NCBI GenBank assembly: GCA_944384655.1
Contig: CALWUF010000033.1
Span: 1-64,000, forward strand
DNA length: 64,000 bases
Direction: 5' to 3'
Source: an uncultured Butyricicoccus sp.
GTDB lineage: Bacteria; Bacillota; Clostridia; Oscillospirales; Butyricicoccaceae
The notes under the pieces are model-generated. The model was not told where the DNA came from and searched no databases. It worked only from the letters and a program-made list of their open reading frames with translations. Below are positions 38,314 through 63,532 of this stretch, one piece after another. Made by a program: the position numbers and the translations under genes. How positions within the stretch are numbered: position 1 is the stretch's first letter; the number at the start of each line of letters is the position of its first letter.

Positions 38314-38541
38314 ATGACTCATTTCAATCATATCACATACAATGAAAATGGTGAGGAAATGGTAGGCGAAGGCGTTGGATTTGAGCGCATCCGCCGCATC
38401 ACCGGCTATCTGGTCGGTACATTGGATCGTTTTAACAATGCGAAGCGGGCCGAAGAGCATGATCGTGTCAAGCATGACATCTATCGCAAGGTAGAAAATG
38501 AGGCGGACTGTGTGTGCCACGACATCCGTCACAGTGCATAA
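38314..38541 (+). CDS. separate glycyl-radical domain of class III ribonucleotide reductase
   Basis: 75 residues. IRRITGYLVGTLDRFNNAKR matches the glycyl-radical loop of NrdD, with G31 as the expected radical site, followed by RVKH, the usual NrdD end. A further 20 residues include two cysteines (CVC). A perfect GAGGAGG site lies before the ATG. It begins 34 bases after nrdD in a different frame, so it is an independent gene and not a simple nonsense break. It should complement the truncated NrdD in trans. Confidence 0.87.
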   Translation: MTHFNHITYNENGEEMVGEGVGFERIRRITGYLVGTLDRFNNAKRAEEHDRVKHDIYRKVENEADCVCHDIRHSA

Positions 38542-38545
38542 GCCG

Positions 38546-39061
38546 ATGGTCGATCAAATGCTTCGAATTGCCGGAGTCATCGATGAATCCATTGTCGATG
38601 GCCCCGGCATACGCTTTGTTATTTTCACACAGGGTTGTCCGCATCACTGTCCGGGCTGCCACAATCCGCAGACACACGATTTTTCAGGCGGACAAGAGGT
38701 CAAAATTTCCCGCCTGCTGGCTGATGTTCAGGCAAATCCGCTCGTTGGTGGTGTGACATTGTCCGGCGGTGAGCCGTTTTGTCAGCCCAAACCGTTGGCG
38801 GAACTGGCGCGTATGCTGCGTTTGAATGGCAAGCATATTATGGCGTATACCGGCTATACATGGGAACAGCTTTTGGAAATGAAAGATCCGGATGTGCTTG
38901 CGTTGTTGCAGCAGTGTGATGTGTTGGTAGATGGTCCGTTTCTCATGGAACAGCGTGATTTGTCGCTGCGTTTTCGCGGCAGCCGAAATCAACGCCTGAT
39001 TGATGTGCCCCAATCGCTCGAACAGGGCTGCGTTGTCACAACTTCCTGTTCACATCTGTGA
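38546..39061 (+). CDS. nrdG: anaerobic ribonucleotide reductase activating protein
   Basis: 171 residues, radical SAM enzyme. The cluster motif C31-x3-C35-x2-C38 (CPHHCPGC) and LSGGEPFCQ are present. It makes the glycyl radical, here presumably on the small separate chain. ATG 38546 lies four bases after the small gene's stop; ATG 38558 is an alternative and neither has a clear ribosome site, suggesting coupling to the upstream gene. Confidence 0.93.
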   Translation: MVDQMLRIAGVIDESIVDGPGIRFVIFTQGCPHHCPGCHNPQTHDFSGGQEVKISRLLADVQANPLVGGVTLSGGEPFCQPKPLAELARMLRLNGKHIMAYTGYTWEQLLEMKDPDVLALLQQCDVLVDGPFLMEQRDLSLRFRGSRNQRLIDVPQSLEQGCVVTTSCSHL

Positions 39062-39133: not shown

Positions 39134-39161
39134 TTGACAATTACCTGTGAGTTGATATAAT
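39134..39161 (+). promoter_or_regulatory. promoter of the structured RNA
   Basis: TTGACA (39134-39139), 16 bases, TATAAT (39156-39161). Confidence 0.7.
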
Positions 39162-39167
39162 TAAATC

Positions 39168-39396
39168 ATAAAGTACACATTTTCGGCGGATGAGGGCGAA
39201 GGTATGCCGTGTGCAGGAAGGGGAAAGACTGCGGGCGGCACTTGTTTTGTCCATCCACACCGGGATCGGGCGCAGAATCTCCGGGTATACAGATTCGGAA
39301 TCCACATGCGCGGATCCGGTTCAGAAAATTATGTAAGACGGTACTTTGTAACCAGCGGAAGGGCTGTTCTGTAGGAGAGCGGAACAGCCCTTTTTC
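39168..39396 (+). ncRNA. candidate structured RNA or riboswitch leader upstream of modA
   Basis: The expected transcript start coincides with a long-range closing stem: 39168-39176 pairs with 39341-39349 (nine pairs, one G-U). Inside are TGCCG/CGGCA with GCAG/CTGC (about 39204-39238), ACCG-GATC against GATCCGGT, GCGC/GCGC and GAATC/GATTC helices. An intrinsic terminator (GGGCTGTTC ... GGAACAGCCC plus T-run, 39359-39396) follows. This arrangement resembles an aptamer plus attenuator before molybdate transport genes. I cannot match it to the Moco riboswitch or another family from memory. Confidence 0.55.
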
Positions 39397-39439: not shown

Positions 39440-39467
39440 TTGACAAATTTTGCATATACGTTATACT
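39440..39467 (+). promoter_or_regulatory. second promoter before modA
   Basis: TTGACA (39440-39445), 16 bases, TATACT (39462-39467), 35 bases before the modA ATG and downstream of the terminator. Confidence 0.65.
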
Positions 39468-39501
39468 TAAGTGAGAATAACGCGCTGGGAGGGAATTCCA
39501 T

Positions 39502-40329
39502 ATGAAAATGAAAAAGTGGGTTGTAACAATTTTGGCTGCGCTATTGTCTGTAGGCATCTTGACGGGGTGCGGGTCCGGCGGCAGCACAGATACAGATACT
39601 GGCAGCGCAGTTGATATGGGTAATACCGGCGCTCTGAGCGGTGAAGTGACTGTATTTGCAGCAAAGAGCATGACCGACTGTCTGGATGAATTGATTGCGG
39701 CGTACAATGAAGAGAATCCGGATGTCGAAATTACTGCGAATTATGCGGGTTCAGGTGACCTTCAGAGCCAGATTGAAAACGGCGCACCGTGTGATGTATT
39801 CCTGTCTGCGGCACAGAAGCAGATGGATGCGCTATGCGACCAGGGGTTGATGGCGGAAGATACGCGCAGCGATCTGTTGACCAATGAGGCTGTTCTGGTT
39901 GTGCCAAAGGATTCGGATGGTATCACATCGTTTGAGGAGCTCGCTTCGGATTCGGTGGAAAAGGTAGCCATTGGTAATCCGGACAGTGTGCCGGTCGGTC
40001 AGTATGCACAGGAGATTTTGACCACTTTGGGCATTTGGGATGTGGTCAACGCCAAGGCGGTTCTCGGCTCCGATGTTCGTCAGGTACTTGCCTGGTGTGA
40101 AACCGGCGAGGTAGATGCTGGTATTGTATATGCAACGGATGCAGCAGTGACGGACAATGTTACCGTTGTCTGTGCAGCACCGGAGGATAGTTGTTCCCCG
40201 GTTGTCTATCCCGTTGCACTCACCTAAGATGGCGCGCAAAACGAAGCTGCACAGGACTTTCTAAAATTTATCCAGAGCGATGATGCAGCGAAGGTGTTCG
40301 AGGAATACGGCTTCGGCATTGCGGCGTAA
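39502..40329 (+). pseudogene. modA: molybdate-binding lipoprotein ModA with an in-frame stop
   Basis: A lipoprotein signal ends at C23 (ILTGC). The periplasmic-binding-protein body starts with VTVFAAKSMTDCLDEL and continues through YAGSGDLQSQIENGAPCDVF. Residue 242 is a TAA stop (40225-40227), directly after VYPVALT. The same frame then continues for 33 codons with a normal ModA ending (AAQDFLKFIQSDDAAKVFEEYGFGIAA) to a second stop at 40327-40329. A single A-to-T change in a lysine codon would explain it. It may be a recent null, a read-through case or a sequencing error. Confidence 0.85.
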
Positions 40330-63110: not shown

Positions 63111-63532
63111 GTGTTCGTACCCCTTTTTCACCCTGGTCGTAGATCCAAATGGAGGATTGCGGTTGACAGAAAAATTTTTTTCAGTGTATCATATTTTTAC
63201 AGTAAGGTAAACGGATTTAATTTTTGAAAATAAGGCGATTACAGGCGGAATATACAGAAAATATGGAAAGCTTATACAATTTATAGATTTGATGTTGTCA
63301 AAGGGATGGAACTGTGGTATTATTATAAACTGACAGCAGATAAAAATAAGTCTGCTGCTCTGGAGAGTTTCATGGAGAAATCTACTTTCTTCTGAACGCC
63401 GAAGGTGTAAGATGGCAATCGCTGTCGATCTCTCAGGCAAAAGGACAGAGCACAATATCTTTGTCTTTTCTCCAAGGTCGGAACTCATGTTTCGACTTTT
63501 TATTTTTTCAAAAAATGGAGGAATGAAATCAA
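63111..63532. other. region upstream of the AGCS gene
   Basis: It holds a glycine riboswitch with its expression platform. The left 200 bases are AT-rich without visible genes. Confidence 0.6.
63334..63508 (+). promoter_or_regulatory. glycine riboswitch with terminator
   Basis: One aptamer: P1 TGCTCT (63356-63361) with AGAGCA (63447-63452), GGAGAG, CGCCGAAGG and CTCTCAGGCAAAAGGAC are the conserved parts. An extra helix CAGCAGA/TCTGCTG (63334-63340 with 63351-63357) lies upstream, and its 3' arm overlaps P1. A terminator (63474-63508: AAGGTCG with CGACTTT, then T-run) precedes the symporter gene. Confidence 0.92.

Follow-up and report, generated by a model that had tools for sequence, protein, structure and literature searches.

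Between nrdG and modA, on the forward strand of the window (the whole 64,000-nucleotide stretch of DNA analysed), lies a predicted gene for a structured small RNA, preceded by a strong promoter and closed by an intrinsic terminator. The features of the locus are as follows.

38498–39061, forward strand: nrdG, anaerobic ribonucleotide reductase activase (Pfam Fer4_12 and Radical_SAM), located 5′ of the RNA at 9/9 loci
39134–39161, forward strand: promoter of the sRNA, TTGACA-16-TATAAT, its −10 element preceded by TG; a 12/12 match
39168–39396, forward strand: structured small RNA of about 229 nt with predicted ends, based on fold, conservation and covariation
39168–39176, forward strand: 5′ strand of P1, AUAAAGUAC, pairing with 39341–39349; 98.8% of cells paired
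39179–39184, forward strand: 5′ strand of P1b, pairing with 39324–39329; 96% paired, with one pair changing from C-G to U-A
39186–39258, forward strand: P2 arm of the three-way junction (helices 3–5), with the invariant loop AAGGGGAAAG at 39218–39227
39259–39320, forward strand: P3 arm (helices 6–8), with a conserved apical hairpin at 39280–39299
39330–39340, forward strand: 11-nt 3′ bulge between P1b and P1, YAUGURAGACG, invariant save two Y/R positions in 9 sequences
39341–39349, forward strand: 3′ strand of P1, GUACUUUGU, pairing with 39168–39176
39357–39394, forward strand: intrinsic terminator hairpin, 16 pairs followed by T's, with the loop AGGAGA at 39373–39378
39440–39482, forward strand: separate modA promoter and palindrome CGTTATACTTAAGTGAGAATAACG, outside the RNA, kept in 5/5 modA-bearing loci

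A promoter scan found the 12/12 promoter, with an identical 16-nt spacer, at 9/9 homologous loci. In the window the predicted +1 lies at about 39168, 7 bases past the −10 element, and coincides with the first base of the 9-bp stem. The initial annotation had described a strong promoter, a nine-pair stem at +1, internal helices and a terminator before modA, and every one of these is present. The second promoter that it had placed after the terminator is also present (TTGACA-16-TATACT, 39440–39467), 3′ of the RNA terminator and ahead of the modA start at 39502.

Fold, covariation and distribution of the RNA

The segment 39168–39396 folds with a free energy of −92.1 kcal/mol, against an average of −68.5 for shuffled sequences (z = −5.5), and 0/200 shuffles were as stable. 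The consensus consists, in order, of P1, the 11-nt 3′ bulge, P1b, a three-way junction carrying the P2 and P3 arms, and the separate terminator hairpin. A first P1b pairing from RNAalifold (UUUC/GAGA) was dropped for AUUUCC/GGAAAU, which a trimmed alignment gave unprompted.

Alignment of the nine homologues provides a measure of how well this structure is kept. In the consensus structure 90.2% of cells are paired, and both sides have changed in 25/62 pairs, including 16 pairs of the P2 arm and 8 of the P3 arm. Paired fraction, both-side changes and covariation score all exceeded those of 500/500 shuffles, a count that is not a strict probability because the sequences are only nine and related; a control in which the structure was slid along the alignment agrees, with only 31–43% paired. 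P1 hardly varies (7/9 pairs are invariant) and is thus conserved but not tested by covariation. At the level of sequence comparison, covariation supports the predicted RNA structure. The most invariant sequence comprises P1 together with the exposed P2 loop, the bulge, the P3 apical hairpin and the terminator loop, the last of which differs in one of the 9 aligned sequences. Across the nine homologues, no small open reading frame keeps its position, frame and sequence.

Conservation forms an island. Mean pairwise identity among the 9 homologues is 0.71 in the core and 0.76 in the terminator, while in flanks of 60 nt it is 0.53 upstream of the −35 element and 0.50 downstream of the terminator, with shuffles giving 0.48–0.50; the RNA is kept and both flanks are near the random level.

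Homologues are present in 9/12 genomes of the genus, the window's own included, and all nine follow nrdG. The carriers are metagenome-assembled genomes, one of them Candidatus Butyricicoccus stercorigallinarum. Two good-quality members of the genus, G008 and G011, have no RNA after nrdG, and G003, the third genome in which it was not detected, has a completeness of only 65%. Among 60 relatives, a DNA search gave matches in nine genomes, all of one genus. A covariance model was built from the nine core sequences and run on family and order genomes; it recovered the same nine among 87 family genomes and found none outside the genus in 394 order genomes, a search with stricter filters that may miss weak homologues. 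Pattern scanning of an 84,980-species collection returned 11 matches, of which 7 were confirmed by the model, all in the genus, and 4 lacked a model match. None was found in viral contigs. Across these searches, the RNA family is restricted to one genus.

Neighbouring genes and control in cis

The initial annotation had read the RNA chiefly as a molybdenum or tungsten cofactor riboswitch for modA. Such an element would sense molybdate, Moco/Tuco or another ligand and control modA through transcription termination, and it would fit both the terminator that follows the structured RNA and the position of modA as the next gene 3′ of the RNA in 5/9 genomes. In the other four, however, the next gene is convergent or unrelated: a convergent CoA-transferase gene in 3/9 (L004, L008 and L010) and xpt in 1/9 (L007). 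Close modA orthologues (at least 70%) occur only in the five genomes in which modA follows the RNA, and the distant modA genes (41–45%) of G010 and G011 have upstream DNA without the RNA. No match to the Moco RNA model (RF01055) was obtained in the region at E≤10 or in 11 genomes of the genus, although controls were matched.

Control of modA appears to lie elsewhere. The palindrome CGTTATACTTAAGTGAGAATAACG at 39459–39482 spans the −10 element of the modA promoter and is kept in the five modA genomes; it resembles a ModE-type operator, so that modABC is probably controlled at the start of transcription. Complementarity between the 5′ arm of the terminator and the core was not above that of shuffles, which speaks against attenuator or antiterminator pairing, and the terminator stem forms with a probability of 0.97 in the window (range 0.87–1.00) when the core is present. 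The ordinary arm–core complementarity and the stable terminator stem together give no sign of a switch.

A Moco riboswitch was therefore rejected, on the grounds that modA is not a constant neighbour and has its own conserved promoter, that RF01055 has no match and that the distant modA genes of G010 and G011 lack the RNA; we regard cis control of modA by any ligand as scarcely credible. Of the initial annotation, the structured RNA thus stands and its main, riboswitch, reading does not. Its fallback guess of a stand-alone small RNA agrees with what was found: an RNA with its own promoter at 9/9 loci and a conserved terminator, a covarying fold without a reading frame, and no consistent 3′ gene. 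We hold with high confidence that this is a stand-alone RNA and not a modA riboswitch.

A different cis role could involve the upstream operon. The terminator hairpin of the RNA is the first terminator-like site downstream of nrdG, and the scanner called none on the same strand from nrdG up to the promoter of the RNA at 9/9 loci. With no earlier such site after nrdG, the RNA terminator probably also serves nrdDG, and a shared terminator would explain the fixed position of the RNA. One could go further and regard the whole element as part of a 3′ UTR, in which read-through nrdDG mRNA is terminated and stabilised by the structure and the internal promoter is secondary. The adjacency to nrdG at 9/9 loci is consistent with this, as are the genus members without the RNA, G008 and G011, where a hairpin followed by T's is seen by eye right behind nrdG; the scanner, however, called neither of these hairpins. 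Moreover, a terminator would need neither a 12/12 promoter at every locus nor a three-way junction with invariant loops, and we consider the 3′ UTR reading unlikely. At one locus from another genus of the family (L049), nrdG is followed by an ORF of about 30 codons for a small hydrophobic peptide and then by a hairpin; this ORF looks like a type I toxin–antitoxin peptide.

Candidate partners and the favoured reading

A stand-alone RNA with invariant exposed loops might act as an antisense regulator in trans, its purine-rich loops pairing imperfectly with pyrimidine-rich mRNAs, possibly with Hfq, and altering their translation or decay. Hfq is encoded in 9/11 genus genomes searched. It is present in 9/10 genomes other than the window's own draft assembly (G000), where it was not found, owing either to loss or to an assembly gap. 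Perfect complements of the P2 loop were no commoner than those of a reversed control, a comparison that bears on long perfect pairing and not on short seeds. At the shared complement sites that were examined, the match falls on the strand opposite a conserved coding frame, and no such site is common to homologous mRNAs. Likewise, in a search for perfect matches the complement of the bulge turned up in three genomes within the RNA alone, and it marked no shared target. In addition, the rigid multi-arm fold exceeds the needs of a seed. Antisense action is for us a possible but tentative alternative.

The bulge at 39330–39340 and its homologues contain an AUG followed directly by UGA (8 sequences) or UAA (1), with a AGGAAAUC-like sequence before it, a possible start–stop codon pair or a coincidence. 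An RNA directed at the ribosome might use this element together with the SD-like loops AAGGGG and AGGAGA, and the P2 loop is indeed invariant and purine-rich. The start–stop pair may, however, have arisen by chance in a bulge that is invariant, and the SD-like sequence before the AUG is weak in the window; to us this reading seems highly improbable. Loops bearing GGA also suggested a sponge for CsrA, but CsrA (PF02599) is absent from the genus (0/11 genomes; controls were matched), and this candidate was rejected.

Taken together, the comparisons favour, with about even confidence, a gene for a stand-alone, strongly promoted structured sRNA that binds a protein or ribonucleoprotein as its scaffold or decoy. 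The conserved promoter, the covarying structure and the independence from the downstream gene are evident from the aligned loci; that the RNA is expressed, where exactly it ends, that it acts in trans and that it has a protein partner are what we infer. RNA polymerase would start near 39168, make an RNA of about 229 nt and stop at the RNA's own hairpin. The invariant closing stem and the exposed parts (P2 loop, bulge, P3 apical hairpin and terminator loop) may then serve as docking surfaces. The RNA would play this part in trans rather than by cis control of a neighbouring gene, and such a role would involve no long perfect pairing with mRNA. As a side effect, its hairpin would be the first terminator-like structure reached by nrdDG transcription. 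A more specific proposal is an abundant, genus-specific regulator forming a new ribonucleoprotein or associated with the ribosome, whose invariant loops and bulge would hold a cellular machine in a manner analogous, though unrelated, to that of 6S RNA; we judge this quite improbable. The consensus promoter, kept without a mismatch in all nine genomes, points to an abundant RNA, and its partner should accordingly be easily fished out.

Comparison with known RNAs

Covariance searches for Moco RNA and other families, which the initial annotation had proposed, gave no match beyond chance level in the region. At gathering thresholds and at E≤10, Rfam returned only chance-level matches there, to BTnc049 (on the terminator) and GlsR10. 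Two outcomes had been named as counting against that annotation, and neither was encountered: no housekeeping RNA matched, and the structure is conserved in nine genomes of the genus. The sole gathering-level Rfam match in the window is a glycine riboswitch aptamer at 63350–63458. No description of the RNA was found in the open-access literature; as subscription papers and supplements lay outside that search, this speaks only weakly for novelty. The RNA is best read as a narrow new structured sRNA family, unmatched by Rfam 15.

Its description contributes a well-supported structured RNA family from bacteria related to the butyrate producers of the gut, in which sRNAs appear to be little studied. 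A tempting but incorrect riboswitch assignment is removed as well, and the case illustrates that a neighbouring operon can mislead.

Stand-alone structured bacterial RNAs such as 6S RNA (RF00013) share part of the layout: 6S RNA too is about 200 nt long, with its own strong promoter and terminator, a stable closed structure and no tie to a downstream gene. It is, however, a long bulged hairpin, whereas the RNA studied here branches at a three-way junction and is not matched by the 6S model. Identity with 6S RNA was rejected, as the genome's 6S match (57.5 bits) sits on another contig. CsrA sponges of the CsrB/RsmZ type likewise carry GGA in hairpin loops, but the present RNA has only two such loops, in a genus without CsrA.

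In other bacteria, the Moco RNA motif lies ahead of molybdate transporter genes as a multi-stem RNA, with an architecture of P1–P5 and a GNRA loop on P4 (PMC2408646). The present RNA is also multi-stem, but has neither this P1–P5/GNRA-P4 architecture (PMC2408646) nor a match to the RF01055 model, nor a constant Moco gene downstream. Searches of intergenic regions, as described in the main texts of two reports, have yielded covarying RNA motifs that occur in few lineages and in many cases have no known function (PMC8632094, PMC11109978). Those main texts name none of nrdG, nrdD, modA and Butyricicoccus (PMC8632094, PMC11109978). The RNA described here resembles the candidates set out in them in being both covarying and narrowly distributed (PMC8632094, PMC11109978).
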